This document shows positions 1 through 41,862 of a stretch of DNA of 41,862 nucleotides, piece by piece. The notes below the pieces were generated by a model. That model was not told the origin of the DNA. It did not search any database and saw nothing but the letters and a program-made list of their open reading frames with translations. Location: positions 1-41,862 of IMG/VR virus record IMGVR_UViG_3300031586_000089, one strand, 5' to 3'. Source of the DNA: a virus. Numbering within the stretch: the first letter of the stretch is position 1; every line of letters starts with the position of its first letter. Position numbers and translations under genes: made by a program.

Positions 1-127
1 CGCCTGCTTATGTAGGTGTCCCTAAGACATTTGAGGAGAGATGCACAATGCTGGAGGAGCGAGGTGTAGTTACTCCTACCCAGACACCAGACCAAGAGCT
101 TCTATACTATTACTATGAGCTTAAGCC
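1..127. repeat. Left copy of 127-bp terminal direct repeat
   Basis: Bases 1-127 are identical to 41736-41862. The giant gene reads in frame from the right end through this copy, so the map closes into a circle of 41,735 bp. An exact 127-bp overlap is what an assembler using 127-base words leaves on a circular contig. It is therefore more likely an assembly overlap than a physical terminal repeat. Confidence 0.95.
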
Positions 128-1453: not shown

Positions 1454-2506
1454 ATGGCGGACTCGGGAGGTCATTGGACTACCTTAGCGGCTGCACAGAA
1501 GCTAACTCAGTCGACTAAGATTCCTGGTGTCATTGAAGAAGATATCAAGCGAAACAATCCTATTGAGAGGGTTGCCGTAGCCCAAGCAGCCAAGTCAGGT
1601 CTGAAAATTGAGTGGTTGAGGGAACAATCTGCTAGCGTTACTGCTCTTGAGGATGCTGTAACCGAAGTGGATATTGGTGGTCAACTGTCCTGGTCTGAGG
1701 ATGTTGACTATGATGAGAAGGAAGCTACCCTCAAGCGGAGTTATGTCCAGCGGAAGCTCGACCACTTTGTCGAGAATATCTACGCCACCTATAACAACTA
1801 CGAGGTCATAATGCTTGGTGAGTGCGAGAAGGCTCTCAAGCGAAAGGTTGGTGCTAGACTAATCTACGCTGACGACAATACCTCAGGACAGTTCAACGGT
1901 ATGCATGCCTGGGCAAGGGAAACTAGCGGCGACCTAAACATAGACCAGGGAGAAGGCAATGGTCTTAGCCTACAGAACCTACGTGTTATGGTAGATGCCA
2001 TGAAGCATGGCTGCGATGAACTTTGGTTTCCTTTCGAGATTATGCGTAGGATGGATGCTGCCTACCAGGAGAAAGGTTTTGTAGGACTAGCAACTGGTAC
2101 TGCTGGCAACCTTGGATACCTAACTCTCGGCTACAATGAACTCGGTAAGCGAGTGCTATTCTGGGATGCAATCCCAATAATCCGAACAGACTTCCTTGTC
2201 GGTGAGGAAGCGAACAGCGGACTAACAGCAACTGCTACTGATGTCCGAACCCTTTACTCATCTGACAAGACATTCTCTATATTCGGAGTTAAGCATGGCA
2301 ATGTGATGGCTATGCAACCTGGACTAACCTACGCCTACGGTGGAACTGAAGGAATGGGAGACTTCTACAAGCTGGTGAGGTTTCCTGAGCTGGAAGACTA
2401 TGATGCTGGAGGTATTAGGTTGGTCAACTATGGAGCTGTACTCCTAGGGTCTTCACTATGTCTAGGCAGGATTGCTGACATGGATGATGCAGCGATAACT
2501 GTCTAA
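1454..2506 (+). CDS. Major capsid protein (HK97-fold type)
   Basis: 350 residues from ATG 1454, with GAGGAGGTG upstream. The pattern fits phage major capsid proteins: an N-terminal arm, then an E-loop/P-domain region around residues 50-120 (WLREQSASVTALEDAVTEVD, then GGQLSWSEDVDYDE), a middle acidic stretch, and a C-terminal A-domain ending in a hydrophobic strand set. Length is normal for an unfused HK97-fold capsid subunit. No cleavable delta domain is evident, consistent with a separate scaffold gene upstream. Position between scaffold and other head genes supports the call. The fold is inferred from pattern, not from a search. Confidence 0.85.
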   Translation: MADSGGHWTTLAAAQKLTQSTKIPGVIEEDIKRNNPIERVAVAQAAKSGLKIEWLREQSASVTALEDAVTEVDIGGQLSWSEDVDYDEKEATLKRSYVQRKLDHFVENIYATYNNYEVIMLGECEKALKRKVGARLIYADDNTSGQFNGMHAWARETSGDLNIDQGEGNGLSLQNLRVMVDAMKHGCDELWFPFEIMRRMDAAYQEKGFVGLATGTAGNLGYLTLGYNELGKRVLFWDAIPIIRTDFLVGEEANSGLTATATDVRTLYSSDKTFSIFGVKHGNVMAMQPGLTYAYGGTEGMGDFYKLVRFPELEDYDAGGIRLVNYGAVLLGSSLCLGRIADMDDAAITV

Positions 2507-8021: not shown

Positions 8022-9047
8022 ATGGCAGTAACATGGAAGAAGGTAGGCTTTTATAGTACCCTCTTAACAGTTGAGGAACAGGAAATAGTTGGAAGGTTAA
8101 CTGGGGGAGACCTAGATGGTATTGCTATAGGTATCGCTGATAACAATATGGTGCAGGTAGATGGCACTATCAATAATGGTGAATACCTTAAAGCTACCGC
8201 CAATGGAGCAGAAGGAAAAACATTTGCTGAAGTTGCATCAGACATATCTAGTAGCATAACAGCACTAGGAGCTGTTGGAACTAAAGCTACTCCTGTTAAT
8301 GCTGACAAGGTATTACAACGGAACAGCGCTGCTAGTGATGCTTTAGTTACTTCTACCTGGACTCAAATCAAGGCATTTCTTAAAACCTATTGGGACACTC
8401 TTTATGAAGCTCTTGGTGCTGTAGCTACTCATGCTGGATTAACTACAGGAGTTCATGGAGTAGGTGCTGGCACTATAGGTATTCTCAATAAGGACAAAAC
8501 TATTCAAGATGCTGATACTGACACCAAGATACAAGTAGAAAAATCAGCCGATGAAGATATAATCAGAATGGATGTAGTGGGAATTGAGGCTTTCCTCCTG
8601 CATAATGATGGCATATTAACTTTAGCAAAGCAGTCAGATGCTAGAGCATATAAGGACGGCACTCAGAGCATAGCAATAGATACAAACGTATTAGTTGAGC
8701 TGGACACCATTGACTTTGACCAGAATAGTGAATTTGATACCTCAGCGGGTAACTACTGCTTCACTGCAAAGCAGGCTGGGATATACCTGATATCTACTTG
8801 TGTAACTTTTATCGCAGCAGAAATTGGAGAAAGGTATCAGGTCATGGTGCAACTGAATGGTGCGACTCAGGGGTTTAATGAGATTTATGCAGCTGGCACC
8901 TATAGAGCAATTTTGCCCTTTCTAACATGTATTGATATGGCAATAGGTGATGTTATCACTCTTCTTGTTTTTCATACTTCTGCAGTGGCTAAGAATATTG
9001 GCACTGATAACAGGTATGTTTGGATGGCAGTCACCAAATTAGCATAG
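8022..9047 (+). CDS. Tail fibre with C-terminal C1q-like domain, 341 aa
   Basis: AAGGAGAAAATTAA precedes ATG 8022. The N-terminal 150 residues contain the Gly/Ala/Thr-rich repeats of a trimeric shaft. A middle part (TIQDADTDTKIQVEKSADED) resembles a fibre connector module. Residues about 205-341 have the C1q/TNF-type jelly-roll order: FDTSAGNYCFTAKQAGIYLI, GERYQVMVQLNGATQG, AGTYRAILPF, and a final YVWMAVTKLA strand. Such domains form trimeric heads on phage fibres and bind surface glycans or proteins. It is the best candidate for the receptor-binding protein here. Confidence 0.65.
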   Translation: MAVTWKKVGFYSTLLTVEEQEIVGRLTGGDLDGIAIGIADNNMVQVDGTINNGEYLKATANGAEGKTFAEVASDISSSITALGAVGTKATPVNADKVLQRNSAASDALVTSTWTQIKAFLKTYWDTLYEALGAVATHAGLTTGVHGVGAGTIGILNKDKTIQDADTDTKIQVEKSADEDIIRMDVVGIEAFLLHNDGILTLAKQSDARAYKDGTQSIAIDTNVLVELDTIDFDQNSEFDTSAGNYCFTAKQAGIYLISTCVTFIAAEIGERYQVMVQLNGATQGFNEIYAAGTYRAILPFLTCIDMAIGDVITLLVFHTSAVAKNIGTDNRYVWMAVTKLA

Positions 9048-9056
9048 AAGGATACT

Positions 9057-9101
9057 ATGGGAAAAGATTTAGGAGATTCTAATGCAAAAGACAACCGATG
9101 A
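9057..9101 (+). CDS. Possible 14-codon peptide before the connector-like gene
   Basis: ATG 9057 has AGAAGG five bases upstream and reads MGKDLGDSNAKDNR before TGA TAG. It lies between two structural genes and ends 12 bases before ATG 9114, which has its own strong site. It has the same length as the peptide at 1408-1452. It may be a coupling device or chance; there is no evidence of a function. Confidence 0.3.
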   Translation: MGKDLGDSNAKDNR

Positions 9102-9113
9102 TAGGAGGTTACA

Positions 9114-10388: not shown

Positions 10389-10400
10389 TTGACTGAGGGA

Positions 10401-10425
10401 CTCACCGTCTTAGGATAGCGGTGAG
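10401..10425 (+). terminator. Hairpin at end of late operon, first of two
   Basis: CTCACCG (10401-10407) pairs with CGGTGAG (10419-10425), a 7-bp GC-rich stem with an 11-base loop. It lies 12 bases after the last late gene. The following CACCTCCTTT has only a short T-rich end, so alone it is a weak terminator, but it stands before a stronger second hairpin. Confidence 0.6.
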
Positions 10426-10438
10426 CACCTCCTTTCTG

Positions 10439-10487
10439 AGCAGCGGACTGTCTGGCTAGTTGCCGCTAGGCAGTCTGTCTGCTTTTT
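10439..10487 (+). terminator. Rho-independent terminator of the rightward late operon
   Basis: AGCAG (10439-10443) pairs with CTGCT (10479-10483), and GACTG (10446-10450) with CAGTC (10471-10475), with a long loop; TTTTT follows at 10483-10487. The T-run overlaps the stop codon of the convergent polymerase gene. It stops rightward transcription before it enters the leftward block. On the minus strand no T-run follows either hairpin, so leftward transcription is not clearly ended here. Confidence 0.75.
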
Positions 10488-12912
10488 ACTCCCATCTCCA
10501 AGTCTGCTTAACATCAAAAGGCATTCTGAACTCTGCTATGTTCTCTAGCTCTTCTATAGGAAACTGATGGTCTCCATCTAGGTCTATACTGTCATGGACT
10601 GTTATAGCCATGACTGGAGGGCCTAGCCCTTTACCATTGCATAGTAGTATCGCTCGTTTGATTATTTCTCCATCACTCCCCAAAACTGGATAGTTGACTG
10701 CCTTCCGCTTCATTCCCTCAGTATATAATGCTCCCCACTGATTATATTCTTCTGGTATGGCTATCCGTCTTCCAAACAATGTAGGCTCAGACCAGCCACT
10801 CTTCAGTGATGCTCGCTGAACTGTTGTTACCCAGTCAGCAACTCCTCTATATGCTCTTAGCCAGTCATCTAGCAGCCTTCCACAGAAGTTTACATCCTTA
10901 ATCTTAGCTTGCTCAGATATGGTCTTGGCAGTAGCACCATATGCTACGGCAAAGTTCAATGTCTTGGCTAGTGGTCTTGGAACTCCCATCTTGTTGGCAG
11001 TATGCTGATGGATGTCGGCTTTCTCAGGGTCAGGATTGTAAAGTATATCTAACATGTCCCTGTCGCCTGACATATTAGCAAGGATGTAAAGATGCTCACG
11101 CTGATAGTCTCCACTGGTAAAGCAGCCATTATCAGGCAGGAGAATATGTCTGCAGTCTGGAGGGATATTCTGGATATTTCTATTACGGCTATTGAGTCTA
11201 CCGACTACAGTATCTAAATAGTATTCGGTATTATGAGTTACCATACCTTCAGCTACAAATGTATGGCAATCAGTAACCATATTTATCAAGTCAGTGTTAG
11301 CTAGTGGCTCTATGCTTATTACCTTAGCTGGCTTGAAGCCAACAGGCTTTCTATTCTCCCACACTTTATAAGCATTTTGAAGTAATCGTCTAGGTCTAAT
11401 AGTCCCTAGAAATCTCATACTTTCAGTCATATTAAACCTAACACACATAGTAAGATGTTTCTTATTCTGCTCAGTTACATATCCTTTGAATCCTGCTTCA
11501 TTAAGCATAAATAGTATCCACTGCCAGGTATCTCCAGGCTTCTGAACTATACCTACATGGGCATTGGAAGCATAACCTTCTCCATCGGCTATTCCTGCAA
11601 GATAGCCTGCTGTCCATGATTCTTTATCTTCTTCCCAAGGGTCAACTACATACTTTATTATGTGTCCTGGTCTAAGCTCGTCTGTCCTTATCCATCTAAC
11701 TCCAGTTTTGAAGTAGTAATTGCTATCTCCAGCTCCTAAAACTAGCCAGGGATGCTCACCGTTAGCAATGACTTCACTTTTATCTGTAGTAATTCGGTAG
11801 GCTGGACCTGATAGCCAGTCCATCTTAACTACCTTAGTCCTTATCATCTTCCAGGACCTACCATCACTATGCCTATCTTTATCTATTCCTACTACTTCGT
11901 CTCCAGGATTTATGTCTACTATAGGTAGCCATCTAAGATCTGCTGTCAATATCCTAGTACTAGGGTGCAGACAATAAAATCTATCCTGCTGAGCCATAGG
12001 TCTGATATATGTATTGAGTAGCTTGCTCTTACCACGATACTCTAGTATTGAAACTGCCAGTGGGTCTTCTAGAAACTGAAGGTCCTTCTCGGCAGTTGAT
12101 AGCTGCTTCTTCTTCCTGGTCTTTCCTCCTTTGGTGAATGGGAGAAAGTTACCGCGCTTGCCAAGGATATATCCTACCTGCTGTGGACTGCCTGGATTCT
12201 CAATGCCAGCATCCCTGATAATCTTATAGTAGATTTCAATATCCTTCTCTAGCTTAGCATCCATCTCAGTTCGGGCATCTTGGTCTATGGCTATACCTCT
12301 CATGCTTATATCTATCAGTATTGGTATAACTTCCATCTCAACCTTGAAGTAATCCTTGTACTGAGCATCTATAAGAGGTTTATATTTTAGGTATAGTGCA
12401 TAGGTTGCTCTTGCATCCCGCTGGCACTTATCAGCCAGAGCAATAGGGTCTATGTCTAGCATGGTCTTTTTGCCTGCTAGCATTGTCTTGGCTGCTGTAA
12501 CATCTATGCCAAGGTTCTCACCATTCTCACTTGCTAAGTATGGCAGGTCTGTTTGGATTCTGCCAAGCAATCTGGCTGCTGTGTTAGTATCGAATATGTT
12601 AGACCTGTCAAATCCCTCCATTCCAGGCACCATCGGCATTACTCCCATATCGAATAAGATGTTGTGTGCTGCCTTACATACCTTGGGACTGAACATACAG
12701 GGTTTGAGTAGTTCTATCTCTCTGGTAGGCTCAGGGTAGGTAGGAAACCATATAGCCTCATCTGGTGAGAATGCGATAGCAAAGCCAAGTGGCATTCTCT
12801 CTTTCAGGGATACGGTCTCTGCATCGAAGGCAATAGTCTCTGGAGGATTGGCTAGCAGGTTGCGGATATAATCTGCATTCTTCTGACCAGTGTTGCTGTA
12901 GTAGGTAATCAT
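10486..12912 (-). CDS. polA: DNA polymerase I family (PolA) replicase with intein, 808 aa (560 aa after splicing)
   Basis: Makes DNA in phage replication. The start ATG follows the deaminase stop directly. Residues 25-190 are a 3'-5' proofreading domain: DAE at 30-32, HNxxxxD at 83-89, RDARATYALY near 166-174. Residues 314-561 are an intein. The polymerase domain has GRLNSRNRNIQNIP (571-584), motif A SGDYQREHLYILANMSGD (600-617), motif B R646...K650...F654...Y658 and motif C VHDS (772-775). No 5'-3' exonuclease domain. Motif A has His607 where the conserved Glu normally stands in DYSQIE, and motif C has Ser instead of the usual Glu. These alignments are ungapped and by eye. Confidence 0.93.
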   Translation of the reverse strand: MITYYSNTGQKNADYIRNLLANPPETIAFDAETVSLKERMPLGFAIAFSPDEAIWFPTYPEPTREIELLKPCMFSPKVCKAAHNILFDMGVMPMVPGMEGFDRSNIFDTNTAARLLGRIQTDLPYLASENGENLGIDVTAAKTMLAGKKTMLDIDPIALADKCQRDARATYALYLKYKPLIDAQYKDYFKVEMEVIPILIDISMRGIAIDQDARTEMDAKLEKDIEIYYKIIRDAGIENPGSPQQVGYILGKRGNFLPFTKGGKTRKKKQLSTAEKDLQFLEDPLAVSILEYRGKSKLLNTYIRPMAQQDRFYCLHPSTRILTADLRWLPIVDINPGDEVVGIDKDRHSDGRSWKMIRTKVVKMDWLSGPAYRITTDKSEVIANGEHPWLVLGAGDSNYYFKTGVRWIRTDELRPGHIIKYVVDPWEEDKESWTAGYLAGIADGEGYASNAHVGIVQKPGDTWQWILFMLNEAGFKGYVTEQNKKHLTMCVRFNMTESMRFLGTIRPRRLLQNAYKVWENRKPVGFKPAKVISIEPLANTDLINMVTDCHTFVAEGMVTHNTEYYLDTVVGRLNSRNRNIQNIPPDCRHILLPDNGCFTSGDYQREHLYILANMSGDRDMLDILYNPDPEKADIHQHTANKMGVPRPLAKTLNFAVAYGATAKTISEQAKIKDVNFCGRLLDDWLRAYRGVADWVTTVQRASLKSGWSEPTLFGRRIAIPEEYNQWGALYTEGMKRKAVNYPVLGSDGEIIKRAILLCNGKGLGPPVMAITVHDSIDLDGDHQFPIEELENIAEFRMPFDVKQTWRWE
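11230..11973 (-). mobile_element. Intein with LAGLIDADG-type endonuclease motif inside PolA
   Basis: Codes residues 314-561 of the polymerase. It starts at Cys314 (CLHPSTRILTADLRWLPI, block A-like). The block B-like region has HPW at 387-389 in GEHPWLV. It ends with block F-like DCHTFVAEG and block G VTHN at 558-561, followed by Thr562 as the +1 residue. The 434-450 segment AGYLAGIADGEGY is one LAGLIDADG-like motif. At 248 residues it is short for a two-motif homing endonuclease, so a dimeric, reduced or dead endonuclease is possible. It splits the polymerase just before the conserved GRLNS segment. Confidence 0.92.
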
Positions 12913-13341: not shown

Positions 13342-13342
13342 G

Positions 13343-14140
13343 TTAGCCTCCTTTCCTTAATACTACTATGCTTTCATCATCAACTGTCTCTATACCCTTA
13401 GCCCTACGAGCAGCAGTGTAAGGCATCCCAGGAGCAGCCCATTTGAAGTGCTCATCTGGATTATGGCTGAATCCTGCACTTACACTAGCATCAATAGCCT
13501 TCTGAACTAACTGCACACGATGTCCCTTCTCTATATGGTCTTTCACAATTAGTGTCATGCTGCCATTAGGCTTCAATGTATCATAGCACTTCTTGTATAT
13601 CAACTCCATCTCATATCCCCAGATGAAGTCAGTCATAGTGCCAAGGTTCAGTGGAGACTTAGAGTATTCGGCAAAGGCATAGCCAGTATCTACATTCCAC
13701 TTGTCAGTTCCTTTGGTGTGCATTATAGTTGCGTACTGTGGACTGAAGATTATGTGGTCTGCTAGGTTAGGTATGGGGAGATACTGCTGACAAGGCATAT
13801 TGATAAGAACTATATGCTCACTGATTCCTGGTGCTATATTCTCCAGCTTATCTACAGCTGCAACTTGTAAGGCGTGGAACATCTCACTAATCTCTACACA
13901 GATGACTTCCCTGCCTATGAGTGCTCCTACCATTAAGGTTCCTGTGCCAGCCATAATGTCTATGAGGACTTGCCCTTCCTCGGATACATACTCAATGATA
14001 GACTGGACAAGATAGACATTCGCCTTGGCAGGATGAGTATTAACCTCAGGAGGAAACATTCTTTTGCGATACTCGGAGTCGGCAGGAAATTTAATCCAGT
14101 CCTGCTCGTTACGAGGATATTCACTAGCGAACTGCTTCAT
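13343..14140 (-). CDS. DNA methyltransferase-like protein (N4/N6-type, orphan), 265 aa
   Basis: SAM-binding motif I is DIMAGTGTLMVGA at 61-73, after the HPAKANVYLVQSIIEY stretch typical of amino-methyltransferases. The catalytic motif IV position reads SPQY at 133-136, where SPPY or DPPY is usual. No restriction endonuclease is seen next to it. AAGGAGACGACTGG precedes ATG 14140. It may modify phage DNA against host restriction. The Gln in motif IV makes the target base or activity uncertain. Its specificity cannot be read from sequence; a link to GATC absence is only a hypothesis. Confidence 0.75.
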   Translation of the reverse strand: MKQFASEYPRNEQDWIKFPADSEYRKRMFPPEVNTHPAKANVYLVQSIIEYVSEEGQVLIDIMAGTGTLMVGALIGREVICVEISEMFHALQVAAVDKLENIAPGISEHIVLINMPCQQYLPIPNLADHIIFSPQYATIMHTKGTDKWNVDTGYAFAEYSKSPLNLGTMTDFIWGYEMELIYKKCYDTLKPNGSMTLIVKDHIEKGHRVQLVQKAIDASVSAGFSHNPDEHFKWAAPGMPYTAARRAKGIETVDDESIVVLRKGG

Positions 14141-14399
14141 TCCAGTCGTCTCCTTTTATCCACTCTCTACGACACTTAGGACAGTGGAATAGAACATTAC
14201 TTTCTGGGTTCCTATGCCATACTAGAGGAACCTTACACTTGAAGCAGTAAGGAATAATTGCAATGTAGCAGGTGTTCCATCCCTGCTGAAGTGCTTGCTG
14301 TTTATACTCCAACTTAAATGGAATGTGAATCTTCTTGGGTGGTTCTCCGTTTAGTTCAGTTATGGTATCGAGTCCGCCAATTTGCTGTTCTTTCTTCAT
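14124..14399 (-). CDS. Small zinc-ribbon protein, 91 aa
   Basis: Two CxxC pairs, CFKC and CPKC, about 20 residues apart form a zinc ribbon in the C-terminal half; the intervening WHRNPESNVLFH is typical of a rubredoxin-type knuckle loop. It overlaps the methyltransferase start by 17 bases and the ERCC4-like stop by four. Such ribbons often bind nucleic acid or help a partner enzyme. No specific family is recognised. Confidence 0.7.
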   Translation of the reverse strand: MKKEQQIGGLDTITELNGEPPKKIHIPFKLEYKQQALQQGWNTCYIAIIPYCFKCKVPLVWHRNPESNVLFHCPKCRREWIKGDDWNEAVR

Positions 14400-15256
14400 A
14401 TGTCCCTCCCTAATGACCTTTGTAGTCTCTCAGCCATTGTCTTACCTATACCATCAATGGCAGTTAGTTCCTTGGTGGGTGCTATGGCTATATCTAGCAG
14501 ATTACAGAATCTCTCGGCCAGCGCACTAGCTCTAACCTCTCCTATCCCAAGATTATAAGTCGTGGACAATAGCAACAATGCCTTGGTAAGTCTATATATC
14601 TCAAGCTCGCCTGCTGTCATGTTCTTCTCATGCTTGATATAAACCTTTGGTCTGTATATCCGCTTGAATGTAGAGTGCGTCTCAGGTGGCTTCTGTTCAT
14701 TCTTGTATATGGATATTAGTAGTCTGGCTGTCTCTTCCCAGTTGTTGGTATAGTATGTGATAATACCAAACTGGCTAAGCCTGTATATCCAAGCATATAG
14801 TTCGGACATTCTGACTGTGGTGAAGCTATGTCCGTGTTCTATAAAGCCTGCTGGTGTAACAGGATAAGTAAACACCTTAGCTCCCAAGTCCCTAGTAGAA
14901 GGCATTGATGCAGAACCTCTGCTACCAGAACCACCACCACTCCTCCCCCCACCTACCGTTTGGATAGAGGCTGCTGCTTCCTTCATATACAACTTGACAG
15001 GGCTCAGCAGACCCTCAATAATCTGATTGGTCTCATCGGCAGAATCGTAATACCGTCTCAACTCATCTTCCATACTATCAACATTACCGACTAGTTCACC
15101 TGCCTGAACCCTACCGAACTGTCTAGTCTTGCCCTCATAGTTACCAAAGAAGTAGTCAGCCATTCCTCGCTGATTGAGTGGAGCCTTAGTGGTAGGTATA
15201 GCCTGCTGGAGCAGGTTAATGATAGTGTCAGGCTCAGATGTATCGACTAAAATCAT
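14396..15256 (-). CDS. ERCC4-like nuclease fold with helix-hairpin-helix, 286 aa (active site altered)
   Basis: N-terminal MILVDTSEPDTIINLLQQ and LNQRGMADYFFGNYEGKTRQ fit the ERCC4 (XPF) nuclease family of phages. The ERK signature should follow: the aligned segment is QFGRVQAGEL at 46-55, so the catalytic Glu and Lys are Gly48 and Val50. A Gly/Ser-rich linker lies at about 102-118. The C-terminus, ELTAIDGIGKTMAERLQRSL at 263-282, is a clear helix-hairpin-helix for DNA binding. It may bind branched DNA without cutting, or use other residues. ATG 15256 follows an AGGTAAG site, six bases after the previous stop. Confidence 0.7.
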   Translation of the reverse strand: MILVDTSEPDTIINLLQQAIPTTKAPLNQRGMADYFFGNYEGKTRQFGRVQAGELVGNVDSMEDELRRYYDSADETNQIIEGLLSPVKLYMKEAAASIQTVGGGRSGGGSGSRGSASMPSTRDLGAKVFTYPVTPAGFIEHGHSFTTVRMSELYAWIYRLSQFGIITYYTNNWEETARLLISIYKNEQKPPETHSTFKRIYRPKVYIKHEKNMTAGELEIYRLTKALLLLSTTYNLGIGEVRASALAERFCNLLDIAIAPTKELTAIDGIGKTMAERLQRSLGRDI

Positions 15257-23274: not shown

Positions 23275-23625
23275 TCATAACTCCTGAAGTTGCTCAAGGC
23301 ACTGCTTGGCATACACTTTTCTTCTAACTATACTGTTGCACTCATGCCAATCCTTGTATGGCTGACCTAAATCAGTACATCTGCCATACTGAATATAGAA
23401 TGGACAGAATGGACAAACATCTTCGCTACGATGTCTATTGTGGCTACGCTTAGATCTAAAGTTATGCTCACATAGGAAGCATGTAAACAAGATACTATCT
23501 GAATCATACCTGCCTCCATTCATCTTCCATCCAGACCATCCACCTTTTATATCTCCTGTTTTTGCTAGCTCAGTCCACATCTCCTTGGTTAGTTTTATAG
23601 CACGCTTGAGTCCTAGTCTTTCCAA
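23275..23625 (-). CDS. Zinc-binding protein with Cys/His cluster, 116 aa
   Basis: The start is TTG 23625, six bases after GGAGGT; upstream in-frame ATGs fall within the preceding gene. The cluster is CFLCEHNFRSKRSHNRHR then CPFCPFY, a C2...H...C2 arrangement of one zinc site, followed by GRC and an HEC. The His-rich stretch recalls C2H2 fingers or a degenerate HNH site, but no catalytic HH pair is present. It contains one of the two GATC sites of the genome (23453-23456). Confidence 0.6.
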   Translation of the reverse strand: MERLGLKRAIKLTKEMWTELAKTGDIKGGWSGWKMNGGRYDSDSILFTCFLCEHNFRSKRSHNRHRSEDVCPFCPFYIQYGRCTDLGQPYKDWHECNSIVRRKVYAKQCLEQLQEL

Positions 23626-24929: not shown

Positions 24930-24931
24930 GC

Positions 24932-27718: not shown

Positions 27719-27769
27719 TGATGGCAGGGGATGGCAGGCTGTGTCCTACCTGACTGACTCATGCCTGAA

Positions 27770-27844: not shown

Positions 27845-27867
27845 TCGCTACCACATGATAGACAGTA

Positions 27868-27895: not shown

Positions 27896-28036
27896 GACTG
27901 GATATTTAATACGCTCACAACTCATAGGGGTATAGGTCATATAAGAATAAAGTCCGTGCCATACGGGTAGGCAACTTTGGTGGATGTATTATTATACTAT
28001 AGGAGAACGGAGATTTTAGGATTAGCAAAACTGAAC

Positions 28037-28345: not shown

Positions 28346-28351
28346 TCTCCC

Positions 28352-31490: not shown

Positions 31491-33158
31491 ATGCAGGCAG
31501 TTAATCAAGACGAAGCCTTAAAAGCTTTGTTCTCTAACAGACGACTTATGATGGAGTCGTTGTTGCAGATAGAGAACAAGGAGCGTCAGCTTGTTCCTTT
31601 CATCCTTAATCCTATTCAGGCAGATATGCTGGATAACTCAGGCCCAAGAGATATCTATGTTAAGCCTGCACAGATAGGGGCTACATCACTTCATCTGGCT
31701 GACTTCTATCTTGACAACATCACTATCAATGGAACTGTGTCTGTTATCATTAGTTATGATGAGACTAGTGCTAAGCGACTTATCATTAAGGCTAAGCGGT
31801 ATCACCAGCATCTGGAAAGGAAAATACCCTCAGTTGCTAAGCTAGACCACAAGAGTGCTGAGGAACTTACATGGGAGAATAGGGATACTAACTTCTACTC
31901 TATCATGTATATATTTAGTTCCAGAAGCTACACACTTGGTAGGGGAGAGGCTATACATAATCTGCTGCTTGATGAGTATGCTTTCTGGATGATAGGCACT
32001 CATGAGCAGGTGTTTAGCTCTGCTGTCCAGCGTGTGCCACTGAAGCTGGGAACTAAAATCAGAGTCCAATCAACAGCTAATGGGGAAGACAATCCTCATT
32101 GTGAGATGTATAGGGCATCCAAGGAAGGCACAGTAGTAGGGCAGTCAGTCTACAAGCACCACTTCTATCCTTGGTATATTCATCCTGATTATATAATGTA
32201 TCCTGGAGACCCTTTCTGCTTAGACGGTGATGATATAGACCCTCTGCCAAATCTCAAGTCAGACGAGGTATTGCTGATGAAGCGGTTGCTACATGAGTTT
32301 GGCTTTTCTGAGCTTGATGCTATGGCTAAGCTTCGCTGGAGGAGATATAAGAAGGCGGAGATGGCAAGTCTAAGACGAAGCGGTGATACGGTGCTTCTGT
32401 TTGAGCAGGAATTTCCTGAAGACGATGAGACCTGTTTCCTTGTTGCAGGAGACCAAGCATACAGCTCTGACACCATAACTGATAAGGTCAGACAATGCAT
32501 CCCTCCTCGATTTACAAAGAATATAGTAAATCCCAAAACTGGAACTTCAGCCGAGTTGGATGTCTGGCACGATAAGGAAGAAGGGCTAAACTATATAGTA
32601 TCCATAGACCCAGGCAAGGGAAAGACATCGGAGTCGGTAGGTCATGTCTGGCATTTTGAAGATGGTTATCAGGATAAGGAAGGTAAGGACATACCACCTA
32701 TTATGCTCCACTGTGCTACACTGGCTGGCTTCTACGATGAGTGGGAAATGGCTGAGTATATGAAGGTTGTTGCGTACTACTACAATGGAGCAGTGATAGC
32801 ACCTGAGGACAACCTAGATATTGTCAGCCATCTGAGAGATTATCCTGACCTCTATTGGCGAGAGGATGTCAGAACAGGCAAAGGTATCAAGGCTGTAGGA
32901 TGGCAGACTAATCTATCTACTAAGCCATATATGATTACTGAACTCAATAGGCATATGGAGTATTTGGATTGTCAGGATATTAGATTCTGGAGTCAGTGCA
33001 AGAATATCCGCAGAAACCCTACAGTCAAAAGCGGTATTGTAGTTGTAGGTGCAGATGACCATCACGACTGTGGAGCAATAGCGATAGTATGCCGAGATGT
33101 TCAGGCGACTACTCGAGGGTATGTAGGCAGTGCAGGATGGCCTGACGGCTGGGGATAA
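31491..33158 (+). CDS. terL: Terminase large subunit (packaging ATPase and nuclease), 555 aa
   Basis: Packs DNA into the prohead. The ATPase has a deviant Walker A, VKPAQIGATS at 57-66 (Lys58 precedes the loop; Ala64 stands where GK usually is), Walker B NLLLDE with Asp161 and Glu162, and coupling motif QSTAN at 193-197. The C-terminal RNase H-fold nuclease has YIVSIDPGKG (Asp373), APED (Glu439, Asp440) and DDHHDCGAIAI (Asp526). Length is typical. No good ribosome site precedes ATG 31491, so translation may depend on upstream genes. Confidence 0.92.
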   Translation: MQAVNQDEALKALFSNRRLMMESLLQIENKERQLVPFILNPIQADMLDNSGPRDIYVKPAQIGATSLHLADFYLDNITINGTVSVIISYDETSAKRLIIKAKRYHQHLERKIPSVAKLDHKSAEELTWENRDTNFYSIMYIFSSRSYTLGRGEAIHNLLLDEYAFWMIGTHEQVFSSAVQRVPLKLGTKIRVQSTANGEDNPHCEMYRASKEGTVVGQSVYKHHFYPWYIHPDYIMYPGDPFCLDGDDIDPLPNLKSDEVLLMKRLLHEFGFSELDAMAKLRWRRYKKAEMASLRRSGDTVLLFEQEFPEDDETCFLVAGDQAYSSDTITDKVRQCIPPRFTKNIVNPKTGTSAELDVWHDKEEGLNYIVSIDPGKGKTSESVGHVWHFEDGYQDKEGKDIPPIMLHCATLAGFYDEWEMAEYMKVVAYYYNGAVIAPEDNLDIVSHLRDYPDLYWREDVRTGKGIKAVGWQTNLSTKPYMITELNRHMEYLDCQDIRFWSQCKNIRRNPTVKSGIVVVGADDHHDCGAIAIVCRDVQATTRGYVGSAGWPDGWG

Positions 33159-33923: not shown

Positions 33924-34162
33924 TTTCTCCATTCAAGCGGATTAAGACATTTATGAATACTCCAGATGAGTGGCATACTACTGTTATAGGTATTGGTGAA
34001 GGGTTCTGTCCTTGGCAGCCAAGATATGAGCCAGGTGAAGATGTAGAGAATATGATAAAGAAGGAATATCACTACTACATCTTTGGAACTGCAGTTGGCT
34101 TTGCTTGTCTGATATTTGCACTGGCAGGAGCAGTAGCATTAGTGCTAAGAGCGATACTGTAA
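33920..34162 (+). CDS. Small protein with C-terminal membrane helix, 80 aa
   Basis: ATG 33920 overlaps the previous stop (ATGA). The first 50 residues are soluble and acidic (PWQPRYEPGEDVENMIKKEY). A C-terminal transmembrane helix (YIFGTAVGFACLIFALAGAV) ends ALVLRAIL. It may anchor to the membrane, as a lysis regulator or spanin-like helper, or join the head-portal region. No lipobox. Confidence 0.55.
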   Translation: MISPFKRIKTFMNTPDEWHTTVIGIGEGFCPWQPRYEPGEDVENMIKKEYHYYIFGTAVGFACLIFALAGAVALVLRAIL

Positions 34163-34173
34163 GGAGAAACAAT

Positions 34174-35958
34174 ATGATTGCAACTTACGCAGATAAGACT
34201 CAACAGATAATCACTCGCTGCAATAACCTTAAGACCTTCTGGGAGCCTAGGAATAAGGCTATGAAGCGCTGGTATAGGCTTATCGAGATGATTGATGAGT
34301 TGAAGACCGATAAGATGGAATCCTTTGTAGGCAACGACCCTAGGGCGCTGTATAATCTTGTTCTGCATCTGCTAGATACTCATATACCTCACAGGATGAA
34401 GAACTATGATATGACTGACCTTGAGGTAATATCTGCTGTGGCTGAAGTAGGTAAGTACTTCAAAACTCACTGGCAGGATGCTCAGGATAGCTTCCGCAGA
34501 ACCAATCCTAGACAGGGCTTGAATAGAACATTCATTGGATTCCTGTTAGCTACTGGCTGGTATGCTATGTTTAGCATAATGTCTGATGATGGCAAGCGGA
34601 CTTACAAGGAACCTTGGAATCCTATGGAAGTATATCCTATGTGGGATGCTATGCTTGGACTGTCCGAGGTGGCTCACATCTACGGTATTAGTCCGCTAGG
34701 TGCAGTTCATATGGCTAAGGCTAATAACTGGGACCTTGGCAGTCCATTTGACCAGTGGATTAGAGCACAAGGAAATGGCAATGTAACTGTATATGACTAC
34801 TGGTGGACTGACATATCAGACGAGTTCCCCTATGTTATGGCTGTCTGGAACGCTGTAGTAATAGGCACCACACTTGTCAAATATGAGCAGACAAGGTTTA
34901 AGAGAATACCTATCTATGTAGCTCCAGTTGGTGGTCTTCCTGATATGGGTAGTTTGACAGAAGGAGCATCTATCAATCAGAAGTACTCCTCAACAATAAG
35001 AGTTCAGGAGCAGAACGAAGTATCTGGTGTAATGACTGACAGGTGGAAGGCTGAACTTGGTCAATCTATCCTAGCAACCAATGAGAACATCTACCGAACC
35101 TGGAATAAGTGGTGGAGTTTCAGTCTGCAGCTGCTAAGAGACACTGCTCAACCGAGGATATTTGAGCGGAGCAGGAGTGGCAAGTCTATCGTCAAACCTG
35201 AAGATGTCTTCAAGCGAGGTGCGATATTCCGAGGTGGGCCTGATGATGATGTTACCTTTGTTGGCACTCCGCCTATACCGCTAGAACTCAGAAGCACTCA
35301 GCTTGACCTGGAAGCCATGATGCAGAGAGGTGGAGTTAGCTGGGCTATGCATGGTGCTGTTGCTGGACAAGTAACTGCCTATGTTATGAGTCAGATAGCA
35401 GCCTCAGCTAATCAAGTTATGAAGCCATTTCATCAGGCAGTAGTTGATGCCTTATCTGACATGGACAATGACGACTTGCAGGATATTAAGGAGAGAGGGC
35501 TTAGACCTTATGGCTGGAAGTATCCTACTGCCCTACCTGACAATAGCATTGTCTCAGCCGATTATGAGGTAGAGATTCCTGGTGACCTTGTGCAGAGAGC
35601 GACTACTGCCAGAATGCTAAATCCTGAGTTCGCACTAAGCTATAGCTATGTAATGAGAAAGCTCTTCCCTGATATAGAAGACTCTATGCAGGAGAGAGCA
35701 CAGCGGCTATCAGATATGGCAGCACTACATCCGAGCAATGCTATGATAGCACTAACGAGATACTACGATGAACAGTCAGCATTCTTATCTAAGCATGGAG
35801 ATGCTAGGGGAGCACAGTTGTATGAACTAATGGCTAGAATGGTTATGCAGCAGCTAGTACCTCAAGCTCCTGAGGAACAGACTGGAGCAGCAGGTATGGC
35901 TGAGCCTGGAGCAGCTTTGCAGCCTCCCGCTGGAAGAAATATAGAGCAACTGAGGTGA
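34174..35958 (+). CDS. Portal protein, 594 aa
   Basis: The start is ATG 34174 with AAGGAG just upstream; an in-frame ATG at 34105 lies inside the previous gene and is rejected. It follows terminase and precedes the giant protein. The sequence has the portal build: N-terminal helices (NNLKTFWEPRNKAMKRWYRL), a beta-rich wing (WNPMEVYPMWDAMLGLSEVA, YDYWWTDISDEFPYVMAVWN), a long helix near residues 380-440 (MAHGAVAGQ-type region then AYVMSQIAASANQVMKPFHQ), and an Ala/Gln-rich C-terminus. It forms the dodecameric DNA gate. Call rests on pattern, size and place. Confidence 0.75.
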   Translation: MIATYADKTQQIITRCNNLKTFWEPRNKAMKRWYRLIEMIDELKTDKMESFVGNDPRALYNLVLHLLDTHIPHRMKNYDMTDLEVISAVAEVGKYFKTHWQDAQDSFRRTNPRQGLNRTFIGFLLATGWYAMFSIMSDDGKRTYKEPWNPMEVYPMWDAMLGLSEVAHIYGISPLGAVHMAKANNWDLGSPFDQWIRAQGNGNVTVYDYWWTDISDEFPYVMAVWNAVVIGTTLVKYEQTRFKRIPIYVAPVGGLPDMGSLTEGASINQKYSSTIRVQEQNEVSGVMTDRWKAELGQSILATNENIYRTWNKWWSFSLQLLRDTAQPRIFERSRSGKSIVKPEDVFKRGAIFRGGPDDDVTFVGTPPIPLELRSTQLDLEAMMQRGGVSWAMHGAVAGQVTAYVMSQIAASANQVMKPFHQAVVDALSDMDNDDLQDIKERGLRPYGWKYPTALPDNSIVSADYEVEIPGDLVQRATTARMLNPEFALSYSYVMRKLFPDIEDSMQERAQRLSDMAALHPSNAMIALTRYYDEQSAFLSKHGDARGAQLYELMARMVMQQLVPQAPEEQTGAAGMAEPGAALQPPAGRNIEQLR

Positions 35959-35962: not shown

Positions 35963-38900
35963 ATGGCAAACGGAACTACTGAAACTACTCCAACCTTACC
36001 AGCCCCTGTCGAACCACCTGAATACTATGCTGGCTTTGGTGTTGAGTTTGAGCAGATGGGAATAGAGTTACAGCAAGCATATGATAATCTGCAGCAGGCT
36101 GAGAAGAAACTGAGTGAGCCTTTCCTTGTTCAGGCGATGCCTGGAGGATTCTTAAAGAGTGCTATGGCTTCTAGCATATATACCTGGATTGTGGAAGCAC
36201 TTACTCCAAAAGAGAGGAAGCAGGAGATAACTCAGTATGCTCAGGCAGAGTTCGATGCAGCTGCTGTAGCATTTCAGCTTGCTGAGTGGAAGTTGGAAAT
36301 TATGCAGGTGCTTCCAGCATATCTGTCAGACCCTACCTATGTGATAGAGAAACCTGAGGATATCTTACAGTTTGTAGCACCTGGAGTTGACTTGAGTGAT
36401 GCTGATACCGCCTGGCTTAATGCAACTTTTGGTAAGTTTGAGCATCTGTCAAATGTTCTGCCAGAAGACTTCCAAGGTGATGCTATGGATGCTCAGTCCA
36501 AGATACTTAATGAAATCCTGACAGAGCCTAAGCTGGAGATGAAGGGAGTTCATCGCCTTACCATAGATGAGATAGCTAAGGCATTTACTTTTGGTGTAGC
36601 AGAGTTGCCTGAGGGGATGACTGAGGAGGATGTGAGAAATATCCTTAGCCAGATGGAGCTAGAAGATGAAGGGTTACTGAGTCAGCAGGAATGGATTGCT
36701 GAGAGGGCTAAGGAATGGGAAGTAGAGTCAGCAAGAATGAGCCTTATCCGAGCAGGTGAGATACTAGCTGGAACACCAGAATTAGCTCCTCTCGAATGGG
36801 CAAAGTTGATAGTAACTCAACCTATGATGGCGACTGTTGAGACAATGCAGAAGTGGTGGGATGCTATAAGCAGGCCAATATCAGCAGCAATTATGGTTAA
36901 TCTGCCTGCTGAGGCTTCTGGTGCTGTTCATGGAGCTGCTCTTGGTGCTGCTGGAGGAGCAACCGTAGGCTCCATACTTGCTCCATTTAGCTTTGGTGTT
37001 AGTATACCTATTGCAACTGCAATAGGAGCACTGGCTGGAGCTATAGGCGGGGCTGCTTGGTTTAGCACTTGGGAGGATGAAGCCAGCAAGGAACTAACCC
37101 AGCACTATGAGTTTTACACTGCCCAAGGTGATAGCAGCTGGTCTGCATATGCTAAGGCCTTCAATGAGTGGGATGCTCCTTGGTGGAAGAAAGCTATATT
37201 AGACTCTGCCTATGACCCTCTAATGTGGATAGGCTGGGGAGGGATAACGGCAGTCGGCAATAAGATAGCAAACATAGCGAAGCCACTATCTAGCGGATTT
37301 CTGAGGAAAGCAGGAACCAGAATTGGTAGCGCAATAGCAGCCTTCGAGAGAGGATATGTTGCTGGAGCAGATGCTGTATTCAAGGTTGGAATATCAGCAG
37401 TTACTGCTCCTATCAAGGGTGCGTTCTGGATAGAAACAAAAATCCTAGGAAGAGGTGTTGGCTATGCTATCCCTCAGACCCTTACGCAGATGTCTCGTAA
37501 CTTTGGAAGAAAAGGCATGATGGATATTCTAGCAGTGGCACGACAGAGATATTCAGGTGCTACACTATCACGAGGTAAACTTGTAGGCATATCTGCAAAA
37601 GACTTTGAAGGTATTCTTACTGATATTACTAGATATGCTCTCAAGAATCCTACCAGTAATGACACTATGGCTAAAGCTGGAACTGCTGCCCTGGAGTTTG
37701 CTTACCGTAATGCAGATGATGCAATGAAGTTTCTAAGGGGTATAGTTGATGATGCTGTATGGGATACTGCTACACTAGCTAAGTTCAACAGCGACTTGCT
37801 TGATTCAATTAGTGGATTTGTCAATATCCCAGGAGTTGCTGTTACTCATGGTGATAGAATGGCTGCTGGCAAAATACTTAGCAGATTCAATAAGTTAACA
37901 AACCTTAGCTCTGCTGAGAGTACTAAGTTAGTTGATACCTTAGCTTCTAGAATAGGTGAGTTTAAGAGTGGGCTGGCTAAGAAGGTTATTGACTCTGTGA
38001 AGGACATGGCTCCTGGTGATGCTATATACAAGATATTTAATAATATGGTAGATACCAGATATGCTAATCTTCGTAACCCAATAGACCAGTTTATGCAGCA
38101 GGCTGGCCACTCTGCATCATGGCATAGTAGAGTAGCAGATAAAATCCTATATTCATCTAGAATGGTAGCTATGGAAAGAAAGCTAGTAATGCCTATAGCT
38201 AAACAGCAGCTACTCTTCACCAACTTTGGTCCTTACAACTATCTTGAGAATAGCATGAGAAGCTTCCTTGGTGGTGCTGAGTTTTCAGTCCCTAGAGCAT
38301 ATGGTGGTGTAGATGAGACTCTGGAAGTCATTGGTAGGTTATCTGGCTGTCCCTATAATTTGGTAATGCTGCAGAGGGGTGAGAAGAGATTAGTGCAGGC
38401 TATGGTTAATCCTGAGACTGGTAGGGCACTTGTATTCAAGGGAGGTAACATTCCATTTGTAACTAGAGGTGTAATTATACCTGAGAAGATTCCTGCTCTT
38501 GGAGGCAAGAAGCTAGGAATGACCTTATCCATAGGTGATAAGAAGTACTTCCTTGGTAGTGCTCAGGACTGGTATGATATGTGGGCTGACCTTGTAGGTA
38601 AGCAACTAGCATATGACTACCAGATACACTTCACTAAGGCTCTATATGATACTCCTCTAGGCAAGGAGACTATTGATGGAGTAAATGATGCTCTGAATAG
38701 TGCTAGGCCTATACTAAGCAACATACCTAGTGTTAAGCAATATACATCAGATATTGAACGCTTGCTTAGGTGGAAGGCACTAGATAATCCTGGAGCTGTC
38801 AGAACAATGGCTGATGTGGATGTTCTGACTTTCAACCGTAGGTGGATTGGTCAGCAGTTCAACCAGAAGGCAGATGCACTCTATGATATACATAGGATTA

Positions 38901-41862
38901 CTAAGGAAGGTCTATACGACAATATCCTTGATGGTTCTATGTTCTCTAAAGGATATGGTAGTATAGATGATAGGTTTGCTGTTGCTCTAGCCTCTGAGCG
39001 TGATATAAGTATAGCCAGCCTGGCTCCTCAGATTGAGGCTATGAAAGACCAGGTTAATTGGATTCTGGCTAATCCTGCTAGGAATCTTGACGATTTCCTT
39101 TGGGATGTGAACCATCTTACTACTGATATAGAAGCAGTCCGAGCAACCATACATGATTACAGGAAGTTGACTAGGATGAGAAGCGGTCAGATGATGCTTG
39201 GTGAGGCAGACGACTTTGAGGTTGGGAGCGCTAAGATGCTAGCTAAGTATCTGAATGAGTCAGAAGAGTCACTAACCAAGATAATGAATCAGGTGATGGA
39301 GAATGCTAAGCTTGCAGGGCTAAACGATGTTCAGCTTGCTCGTCTAACAGACCTAAACTCTATCAATCGACTGGAACTTGAAAATGTTATAGCAACCAGA
39401 ACTAAGCTAGCCGAGATAGAATCTGAGATTGCTGCTTTTCATAAGAGAATCAAAGGTATGTGGAGAACCAATCCTGATAAGGCTGCTAAGGAAAGTAGGC
39501 TGTTCTGGAATGAAGGCACTAACAGCCAAAGATTTAGGAAGTCATCTGTGTGGGAGGAGTTTGATGATGTAGCCGATAAGTTAAAGTTTGGCAGACTGGA
39601 GGCTAGCCGTAACTTCCTTACATCTGTAGATAAGCCAGCCTTCGTGCCTGACTTTGTTCCAGAGGTAACAGGAGAACTAACTGCTAACCACCTAGCATAT
39701 CTCTATGGTGCTACTGGAGATGACTTGTATAGAGGGTTGACCAGAATATCTCAGCATACCCAGACTATGCCTAGGAAGGACTTTATCATACATACCAGAG
39801 AACAAGCATCTGCCTATGCTGCCAAGCTTGGCAAGACAGCTGACCAGATAGGCTTTACCGAGGAGGCGATAGGTGAAGTATATGACCAGATGTGGAGAAG
39901 CCTTGGTGTCAATCCTAATATGCTGACTCCTGACTCTCCAACAGCACTTCAGCTGGAGGAGCTAAGGCAGGAGATGTATAGATGGTATGGGTCTACTAAG
40001 ATTCCTGAGGCAGATGTAGTGAAGTGGAGGAAGTATCTCAATACAGTAGCAGATGGAGTAGAGCAGTTGCCAGCATACAAAGTGGCGGGTGCTGTTCCTG
40101 GAGTAGTAGAAACAGGTCAGCCATATACTGCCAGACTATATCGAGGAACCAAGCTTAAGGGACAGCCTCCAACTGATGAGGGTCTGGTTGGTAAGGGGCA
40201 GTACTGGACTACTACTAGAGAAGTAGCCGAAACCTATGATGCTGTAAGAGAAGCTACCATAAATCTGCGGAAGCCTTATGTAATCAAGACTCAAGCTGAG
40301 TTTGACGACTTTAGCAATATGCGGATTAGACCAATTAGAGATGTAGCTGAAGCTGAAGGAAGAAGTGAGGACTGGGTGCAGACAATGCTTCGTAGCCAGC
40401 TTAAGAATGAAGGCTTTGATGGAGTTATTATAGAAGCAGGCATTGTTGAGAAGGGTAGGCAGATAGCAGTATTCAATCCAGAGAAGGCAGTAGGAGCAGC
40501 TCCACCGCCAAAGGTGCCTACTGCTGAAGCTGTTGGCGGCACTCCTGCCTGGTGGGCTACCAAAGAATCTGCCATGACTAAGGCTCGTGAGATGCACGCT
40601 ATGGCCTACCCTACCTATGACGATGCTAACATCATAGACGAGACTATGAGGGCCATCTTTCCGTTTTGGAACTATGAACTCTTCCGTTGGAAGTGGCTAC
40701 CTCGCACCTTCATGCGAACTCCAGGAGTTATGTCTGGAGTAGCTCGCTATATGGACTATACTGACCAAGGCTATGTGTCTGTGCCAGGCACTGACCTTCA
40801 GCTAAACCCACTCCGAGGTACTGTCTTTATGGGCGGATTGAGAAGTTTCTACCTACGTGACTTTCCTGAGTTCCATGATTCTATCCCAGGTATAGAGTTT
40901 CTAGACTACATCGGCAGAGCAGGCTTCTTCCCAGGCATCCATGTTATGCTTCCTATCATTGGACTATCATCTATAGCAAGTGGGCAGAAGATGCAGTGGA
41001 GTGAGCTAGCCCCTGCTTGGATTAAGACTAGCCTCAGTGGACTAAGAGCATTATCTCCTGAGCATATAGGAAAGGTTCTGGACACCATCTACCCTGACCG
41101 CTTCCGAGACTATATGACTATGATGCAATTAGCTAGCATGGGCTATGACGGTGATGAGATATGGAAGAAGAGACAGCAGGGTACTGCGCTTACCGAAGAG
41201 GAAGAGAAACTTTGGCTGACTGCTGTAAACAAGGTTGATGGCATCAAGGGTGTACTGATGAATCAGACAGGACTGTTTAGAATCCGCCCAGCTGAATTTA
41301 CTCAAATCCGAGGCGAGATGAGATTGGCAATAGAGGAAGCTACTGGTGTTCCTGTCAGCACCCAAGAATGGATTGACAAGATGTATCCTGTAACAGGCAA
41401 GAGATTCACTGACTACTACCACTTGGACATTCAGCAGCAGGCTCTCCTCTACCAGTGGGAATCATTCAGAAGGTATCAGGGGATAACTGAACCATTATAC
41501 CCTTCCAGCTGGCAGGCTATTGATATTAAGAGAAGTGATTACTATGCCGAACTGGAGCGGATATATACAGATGCAAGGTATAATGGAGTATATGAGAATG
41601 GTGAGCTAGTTCAGCAGAGCATGACTGAAATCAACCGACAGCTTGTAGAAGGTATCATAGGCCCTGACCAGTGGAGGGCAGCTAGAAGCAGTATGCAAGA
41701 GGGACTATCAGCATCTGCTACCGCACTTGGCAATTCGCCTGCTTATGTAGGTGTCCCTAAGACATTTGAGGAGAGATGCACAATGCTGGAGGAGCGAGGT
41801 GTAGTTACTCCTACCCAGACACCAGACCAAGAGCTTCTATACTATTACTATGAGCTTAAGCC
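35963..41862 (+). CDS. Giant virion protein (2134 aa with its end at 1-632), ART-PolyVal-like domain
   Basis: GAGGTGATATA precedes ATG 35963. The frame is open to the end and continues at position 3 to 632. Residues 1-300 are helical. About 315-372 form a long Gly/Ala hydrophobic stretch (GAALGAAGGATVGSILAPFS, then ATAIGALAGAIGG) that may cross or enter membranes. About 1388-1512 resemble an ADP-ribosyltransferase of the polyvalent-protein type: RLYRG (1391-1395), GKGQYWTTTREVAETY, INLRKPYVI, LKNEGFDGVIIEAG, QIAVFNP. A Phe/Trp-rich segment (IFPFWNYELFRWKWLPR) follows. It may be an internal or ejected protein that modifies host targets. Confidence 0.75.
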   Translation, partial: MANGTTETTPTLPAPVEPPEYYAGFGVEFEQMGIELQQAYDNLQQAEKKLSEPFLVQAMPGGFLKSAMASSIYTWIVEALTPKERKQEITQYAQAEFDAAAVAFQLAEWKLEIMQVLPAYLSDPTYVIEKPEDILQFVAPGVDLSDADTAWLNATFGKFEHLSNVLPEDFQGDAMDAQSKILNEILTEPKLEMKGVHRLTIDEIAKAFTFGVAELPEGMTEEDVRNILSQMELEDEGLLSQQEWIAERAKEWEVESARMSLIRAGEILAGTPELAPLEWAKLIVTQPMMATVETMQKWWDAISRPISAAIMVNLPAEASGAVHGAALGAAGGATVGSILAPFSFGVSIPIATAIGALAGAIGGAAWFSTWEDEASKELTQHYEFYTAQGDSSWSAYAKAFNEWDAPWWKKAILDSAYDPLMWIGWGGITAVGNKIANIAKPLSSGFLRKAGTRIGSAIAAFERGYVAGADAVFKVGISAVTAPIKGAFWIETKILGRGVGYAIPQTLTQMSRNFGRKGMMDILAVARQRYSGATLSRGKLVGISAKDFEGILTDITRYALKNPTSNDTMAKAGTAALEFAYRNADDAMKFLRGIVDDAVWDTATLAKFNSDLLDSISGFVNIPGVAVTHGDRMAAGKILSRFNKLTNLSSAESTKLVDTLASRIGEFKSGLAKKVIDSVKDMAPGDAIYKIFNNMVDTRYANLRNPIDQFMQQAGHSASWHSRVADKILYSSRMVAMERKLVMPIAKQQLLFTNFGPYNYLENSMRSFLGGAEFSVPRAYGGVDETLEVIGRLSGCPYNLVMLQRGEKRLVQAMVNPETGRALVFKGGNIPFVTRGVIIPEKIPALGGKKLGMTLSIGDKKYFLGSAQDWYDMWADLVGKQLAYDYQIHFTKALYDTPLGKETIDGVNDALNSARPILSNIPSVKQYTSDIERLLRWKALDNPGAVRTMADVDVLTFNRRWIGQQFNQKADALYDIHRITKEGLYDNILDGSMFSKGYGSIDDRFAVALASERDISIASLAPQIEAMKDQVNWILANPARNLDDFLWDVNHLTTDIEAVRATIHDYRKLTRMRSGQMMLGEADDFEVGSAKMLAKYLNESEESLTKIMNQVMENAKLAGLNDVQLARLTDLNSINRLELENVIATRTKLAEIESEIAAFHKRIKGMWRTNPDKAAKESRLFWNEGTNSQRFRKSSVWEEFDDVADKLKFGRLEASRNFLTSVDKPAFVPDFVPEVTGELTANHLAYLYGATGDDLYRGLTRISQHTQTMPRKDFIIHTREQASAYAAKLGKTADQIGFTEEAIGEVYDQMWRSLGVNPNMLTPDSPTALQLEELRQEMYRWYGSTKIPEADVVKWRKYLNTVADGVEQLPAYKVAGAVPGVVETGQPYTARLYRGTKLKGQPPTDEGLVGKGQYWTTTREVAETYDAVREATINLRKPYVIKTQAEFDDFSNMRIRPIRDVAEAEGRSEDWVQTMLRSQLKNEGFDGVIIEAGIVEKGRQIAVFNPEKAVGAAPPPKVPTAEAVGGTPAWWATKESAMTKAREMHAMAYPTYDDANIIDETMRAIFPFWNYELFRWKWLPRTFMRTPGVMSGVARYMDYTDQGYVSVPGTDLQLNPLRGTVFMGGLRSFYLRDFPEFHDSIPGIEFLDYIGRAGFFPGIHVMLPIIGLSSIASGQKMQWSELAPAWIKTSLSGLRALSPEHIGKVLDTIYPDRFRDYMTMMQLASMGYDGDEIWKKRQQGTALTEEEEKLWLTAVNKVDGIKGVLMNQTGLFRIRPAEFTQIRGEMRLAIEEATGVPVSTQEWIDKMYPVTGKRFTDYYHLDIQQQALLYQWESFRRYQGITEPLYPSSWQAIDIKRSDYYAELERIYTDARYNGVYENGELVQQSMTEINRQLVEGIIGPDQWRAARSSMQEGLSASATALGNSPAYVGVPKTFEERCTMLEERGVVTPTQTPDQELLYYYYELK
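41736..41862. repeat. Right copy of 127-bp terminal direct repeat
   Basis: Identical to 1-127. Bases 41736-41862 are a second copy of the same part of the giant gene and should be counted once on a circular map. Confidence 0.95.

Follow-up and report, generated by a model that had tools for sequence, protein, structure and literature searches.

The window considered here is the whole of a 41,862-nucleotide stretch of viral DNA, IMG/VR record IMGVR_UViG_3300031586_000089, and the subject is the near-elimination of the tetranucleotide GATC from it and from the phage family to which it belongs. Bases 1-127 recur as bases 41736-41862, and these identical ends therefore give a circular map of 41,735 bp; the window holds the entire genome of a tailed phage that maps as a circle. 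Its genes include those of the major capsid protein (1454..2506, plus strand; phrog_212, 1.2e-9), the large terminase subunit (31491..33158, plus strand; tblastn to annotated terminases, best 2e-22) and a probable portal protein (34105..35958, plus strand), which is named from its position after the terminase, is kept in 21 of 21 long relatives at 33-72% identity, and matched no family in Pfam or PHROG scans. A family A DNA polymerase is encoded on the minus strand (10486..12912; PF00476, 1.4e-41). Megablast searches with both genome halves found no near DNA relative in the phage collection, where the capsid relatives are distant (25-29% identity over part of the protein). Only two GATC sites remain, at 11937..11940 within the polymerase gene and at 23453..23456, each in the context AGATCT; an earlier note, made by reading the sequence, had reported exactly these two, and a recount agrees.

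The expected number of GATC sites is 170 under a maximal-order Markov model, 178 under a first-order model and 159 from base composition; the earlier note had offered roughly 150. The Poisson probability of two or fewer sites given 170 is 2e-70, and the z-score of GATC (-16.6) is the lowest of all 256 tetranucleotides. As in Type II restriction-site avoidance, the depletion exceeds what oligonucleotide and codon composition account for: synonymous-codon shuffling of 36 open reading frames (ORFs; 32,388 nt, 300 shuffles, with proteins and codon use preserved) left a mean of 115.3 coding GATC sites (standard deviation 8.0, minimum 92) against a single one observed. The loss is also specific, though CCGG, CGCG, ACGT, GGCC, GCGC and GTAC are low as well. 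All 16 four-base palindromes lie under their Markov expectation (0.00-0.91 of expected); CCGG is wholly absent (0 versus 36 expected, z -7.7), CGCG is nearly gone, and CGCG, ACGT, GGCC, GCGC and GTAC stand at 0.08-0.54 of expectation, with AGCT, TCGA, CTAG, TATA, TTAA and ATAT at 0.72-0.91 compared with 0.01 for GATC. The contrast drawn in the earlier note between GATC and other palindromes holds for CTAG, which is indeed common (212 versus 264 expected), but is incomplete: GGCC and GTAC are reduced, and the absence of CCGG had been missed. Among the words one step removed from GATC, those most raised over the shuffles are GATG (z 9.5), GATA (6.0), GACC (5.4) and TATC (5.3), whereas AATC and CATC are raised less (z 3.0 each) and GATT is low (z -2.0). 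GATT and AATC, with 120 observed versus 138 shuffled and 146 versus 123, respectively, show no net excess of deamination products. The lesser rise of AATC and CATC and the slightly low GATT indicate that deamination of methyl-cytosine is not the main route of GATC loss.

The extent of this avoidance was traced by a capsid search of IMG/VR, which gathered 67 loci with 49-87% identity in the best segment, forming 50 groups at 95% DNA identity over 1 kb. The observed-to-expected ratio (O/E) of GATC is below 0.1 in 61 of these loci, 36 of which contain no site at all, and the total over all 67 is 117 sites versus 2,988 expected, 39 of them from L068 alone. The six loci at or above 0.1 are L026 (2 sites of 16 expected), L027 (10/57), L054 (4/7), L065 (3/29), L066 (11/49) and L068 (39/94). 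Together with the window, 21 long relatives (35.9-44.5 kb) make up a set of 22 genomes, 11 of which show end repeats; GATC O/E is below 0.07 in 21 of the 22, and 11 of the 21 relatives lack the site altogether. The sole outlier is G030, the record of L068, with 84 sites versus 218 expected. The strong counter-selection proposed in the earlier note is thus upheld by the codon shuffle, by the lack of a net GATT and AATC excess, and by this persistence across relatives. The 21 GATC-poor genomes retain 46 sites between them, 8 in AGATCT and 14 in AGATCC/GGATCT; the idea that AGATCT is exempt from purging was considered and rejected, these contexts looking ordinary.

On a tree of the capsid, terminase and portal proteins of the 22 genomes, GATC status differs only in G030, a single change that is the ceiling when 21 of 22 genomes are alike and so shows constancy rather than rate. 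Status on the same tree, which was built by a quick method with Shimodaira-Hasegawa-like approximate likelihood ratio test (SH-aLRT) support only and places G029 on a long branch, changes 3-5 times for CCGG, 5-6 times for GGCC and 4-5 times for TCGA, depending on the cut-off. GATC avoidance is therefore near-constant, whereas the loss of CCGG, GGCC and TCGA is labile and patchier, and CTAG, AGCT, TGCA and CATG never fall below 0.25 of expectation in any of the 22. Single members lack further sites, namely GAWTC in G019 (0 of 50 expected), CTGCAG in G013 (0/25) and GCTAGC in G007 (0/17). GAWTC is nearly lacking from G023 (L089-L090; 1/42) as it is from G019 (L081-L082), and in both GGWCC, GTSAC and certain hexamers are also scarce, which reads as the mark of another set of host restriction enzymes.

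The exceptional G030 forms a group with the window and G004 (support 100 for the group, not for an order within it), so that GATC was most simply lost earlier and then regained. Its 84 sites are evenly spread (Kolmogorov-Smirnov P 0.73) and lie in inherited genes, its 13 core genes holding 38 sites versus 87 shuffled, where the 12-13 core genes of the window and five relatives hold 1, 2, 3, 3, 0 and 0. Every gene shared by at least 20 of the 21 relatives is present in G030, which has a similar base composition. This even return of sites in core genes indicates that the replication machinery does not of itself shed GATC. Of the ORFs of at least 45 amino acids (aa) in G030, 29 match nothing in the remaining 21 genomes, and a profile scan covered 8 of these and two others. 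One of the unique genes encodes P0002, an extra predicted methyltransferase of 166 aa (L117:13288-13788) found only in G030 among the 22 genomes, which bears an NPPY motif and matches phrog_799 (DNA methyltransferase) at 5.9e-37. Shielding by this enzyme, rather than a change of host, is a tentative explanation for the regained sites, and host change stands as an equal alternative. Although the uniqueness, motif and profile match of P0002 speak for shielding, the event is single, the enzyme has no Dam-family match in Pfam, and 28 other ORFs are unique to the same genome. Moreover, a general power of P0002-type enzymes to restore GATC is not borne out by 24 loci of other viruses chosen through their P0002 relatives (3 of the 24 share distant terminase or polymerase matches with the phage family, at most), which range from GATC-free to GATC-normal: O/E is below 0.1 in 3, from 0.1 to 0.5 in 8 and at least 0.5 in 13. 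The partly relaxed loci L027 and L066 yielded, among their ORFs of at least 80 aa, family matches from the structural part and no P0002, which does not bear on the methyltransferase idea.

A second methyltransferase, P0001 (265 aa; 13343..14140, minus strand), belongs to the core of the family, occurring in every one of the 20 related records longer than 37 kb and in 24 of the 33 overall. It matches PF01555 (2.5e-11) and a PADLOC Type II methyltransferase profile (8.8e-11), and in the window displays MAGTGT as motif I and SPQY as motif IV, the latter shared with 6 of 19 aligned relatives and with G014 and replaced by SPPY in the other 13. The predicted structure is that of a class I methyltransferase (predicted local distance difference test score, pLDDT, 88), and a fold search returned class I methyltransferases, with the transfer RNA enzymes Trm11/Trm14 as best matches (Z 19.0, root-mean-square deviation [rmsd] 2.8, 181 aligned). 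The fold leaves the choice between a DNA and an RNA substrate unsettled; sequence profiles favour the DNA enzymes, Trm14 being weaker. The C-terminal half varies between clades, as might be expected of a target-recognition region. Neither P0001 nor P0002 matched the Dam-family methyltransferase families PF02086 and PF05869 in Pfam, a result that does not reveal target specificity. Because P0001 is present in the strictest GATC avoiders, GATC is probably not what it protects, although other sites may be. Directly behind the SPQY of the G014 methyltransferase (L134:15397-16962) lies an intein-like insert, and the terminase of the same genome (L133) has 891 aa versus 555-573 in its own clade, suggesting a second intein-like insert.

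At 808 aa versus 540-572 in 20 relatives, the window polymerase likewise carries an in-frame insert, about 253 aa long and intein-like. The insert begins CLHPSTRIL and finishes VTHN, and tblastn with the polymerase also matched mycobacteriophage genes at 35% over residues 313-563, the region of the insert, many of those listed being annotated as terminase. Three further genes of note lie on the minus strand. A core XPF/Hef-like protein with a C-terminal helix-hairpin-helix (14396..15256; PF12826, 2e-7) matched the XPF endonuclease 2bhn at 1.3e-4 with a family profile, the matches spanning its C-terminal half; a RecA-like/DnaB-like helicase (AAA_25) lies at 20922..21902 (PF13481, 4.7e-18); and a core protein at 18782..19555, with weak OB-like and winged-helix-like matches, is possibly a single-strand DNA-binding protein as judged from its predicted structure (pLDDT 84; best fold match Z 5.7, rmsd 3.8, 88 aligned). 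An ORF at 17934-18632 (minus strand) with weak Cas4 similarity (3.4e-4) is found in 10 of 21 relatives and adjoins a small minus-strand ORF (17737-17943) whose DNA_pol_A similarity falls below the curated cut-off. The window also encodes a dCMP deaminase and MazG; no integrase match was found among the 40 window ORFs scanned with Pfam, the remaining small ORFs lying outside the scan. A perfect 30-nt inverted repeat (19946-19975 and 20433-20462, 457 nt apart) surrounds an ORF at 19998-20381, making a possible mobile or regulatory unit, and the G030 homologue of this ORF is longer, with a weak match to HNH endonucleases. From 35963-41862 (plus strand), running on across the join, extends one ORF of at least 1,966 aa that is matched in 21 of 21 relatives, has no match in Pfam or PHROG, and has a counterpart of 2,721 aa in G030.

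The host is taken to be a bacterium on the strength of sequence signals. Within the scanned region 9000-28900, minus-strand sigma-70 sites beginning at 26705, 22201 and 19922 match the consensus exactly and carry a TG ahead of the -10 hexamer, and strong Shine-Dalgarno sequences precede many window genes; promoter-like sites in the same region are not above shuffles in number (46 versus 42.5±6.8). A profile scan of genome contigs with the capsid alignment found no relative, and the same scan with the polymerase alignment found one contig, L136 (JAGMBO010000094.1), in a metagenome-assembled genome (MAG) of Eisenbacteria. L136 is itself GATC-poor (1 of 70 expected) and has 45% GC versus 61-68% in five sampled contigs of the MAG, in which GATC is at expectation and whose tetranucleotide usage correlates with that of L136 at 0.07. 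Because GC content and tetranucleotide usage disagree, the link is probably a binning error, and the public Eisenbacteria MAG is likely contaminated by a contig of the phage family. Eisenbacteria were accordingly set aside as host, given the compositional misfit of L136 and the normal GATC of the sampled contigs. No DpnII-family endonuclease was found in this MAG. In 47 genomes of the phylum nothing else matched L136, a spacer of clustered regularly interspaced short palindromic repeats (CRISPR) being one such possibility, and there was no capsid match, the capsid search being positive nowhere and so showing little; methylases matching PF02086 occur in 19 of the 47, which says nothing on specificity.

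Comparable losses are known from other viruses. According to Rusinov et al. (2018; PMC6286503), about one in ten viral genomes has lost a site completely or almost so, usually one of the orthodox Type II kind, and GATC is avoided also under Type IIM enzymes. The window resembles the non-temperate double-stranded DNA phages of that study, in which a palindromic Type II site is nearly lost and GATC is among the avoided sites; it differs in that their host species are known and in that its own avoidance spans the whole sampled family with one reversal. Where no integrase is recognised in a phage, the purging of one palindrome is the established footprint of restriction (PMC6286503), and a GATC-directed host defence is accordingly taken as the probable cause. 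The HF1-group haloviruses share the group-wide loss, with GATC absent from seven of seven isolates and at 0.45 of expectation in two proviruses, and their methylases are argued to target other motifs; however, that group is archaeal and also lacks CTAG, whereas the window has bacterial-type promoters and common CTAG (PMC7230728). The Staphylococcus podovirus phiAGO1.3 likewise has only two GATC sites, a loss its authors linked to Sau3A-type and other host enzymes, but unlike the window it has a 17.6-kb genome and a cultured, well-known host (PMC6346686).

Recognition-site avoidance driven by a GATC-directed defence across the hosts of the phage family is, in our judgement, quite probable, and the host restriction or methyl-dependent reader of GATC put forward in the earlier note stands as the best explanation. 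The defence would be present across the bacteria that the family infects, and would cut GATC-bearing genomes on entry; substitutions that removed the site, whether synonymous or tolerated, would have become fixed at an early stage of the family, with any later sites being purged in turn. Further, more changeable losses would come from lineage-specific enzymes that read CCGG, GGCC, TCGA, GTAC or GAWTC; a GATC status that differs in only 1 of 22 genomes, beside repeated changes for CCGG, GGCC and TCGA, is what one constant and several patchy enzymes would produce. In a host lacking the enzyme, or perhaps behind a shielding methyltransferase in G030, this pressure would be gone and GATC would drift back. 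By comparison, GATC varies widely among the 24 other-virus loci, which also counts in favour of this reading. Sau3AI, MboI and DpnII are the type names for Type II readers of GATC, and DpnI for the methyl-dependent type. A Type II restriction endonuclease most likely holds the larger share of this explanation. A methyl-dependent enzyme of the DpnI/Mrr type, which would cut progeny from a GATC-methylating host in the next host, is a smaller possibility within it. Such an enzyme finds precedent in GATC as a Type IIM site, below expectation in 46 of 46 phages of enzyme-encoding hosts (PMC6286503), and in the GATC-free HF1 haloviruses together with a haloarchaeal host that restricts methylated GATC (PMC7230728); yet it selects only against previously methylated DNA, so both kinds of host must be met often, and the data do not separate it from Type II restriction. 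Several points weigh against host defence. The searches turned up neither a host nor a GATC enzyme, the sole host-linked contig being probably misbinned in a MAG without a DpnII-family endonuclease; constancy down to about 49% capsid identity demands a GATC enzyme that is near-universal in the host range, which is stronger than usual for restriction-modification; and every palindrome is somewhat low in the window and 11 of the 24 other-virus loci also have GATC below 0.5, so that a more general tendency may account for some of the signal.

Explanations outside host defence fare considerably worse. Mutational or compositional bias, such as deamination of methylated C in GATC or codon preference, would fit the low counts of several further words, chiefly palindromes containing CpG, but is very unlikely, as the codon shuffle still predicts 115 sites, the substituted words most enriched are GATG, GATA, GACC and TATC rather than AATC or GATT, and G030 has far more GATC at similar base composition. 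A nuclease borne by the phage and directed at GATC in host DNA or rival phages, to which the phage is immune by lacking the site, would yield the family-wide constancy directly, and nuclease-like genes exist in the core XPF/Hef-like protein and the Cas4-like ORF. Those nucleases resemble repair enzymes, however; no DpnII-family domain (PF04556) was found in the window, one control genome having matched, and other endonuclease families or folds were not checked individually; and G030 holds 84 GATC sites although its core genes, that of the XPF-like protein among them, are kept. This reading is equally improbable. A variant in which a core gene attacks GATC DNA, the phage has been purged, and G030 marks its own sites through its extra methyltransferase would accommodate the exception and is, if anything, slighter still.

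The avoidance described here is a known phenomenon, real and strong, in this case family-wide and with an instructive reversal, and not a new kind of system. In the studies consulted, site avoidance is mostly described for phages with a known host, and among the papers on GATC avoidance that were listed, no title or abstract opening describes this phage family. In this uncultured family one site has stayed excluded through deep divergence as others come and go, and comparing GATC with these other sites tells a constant part of the defence landscape from a patchy one. The pattern offers a clue for finding the host, namely bacteria with a clade-wide GATC defence, and G030 provides a natural reversal with a testable candidate cause.

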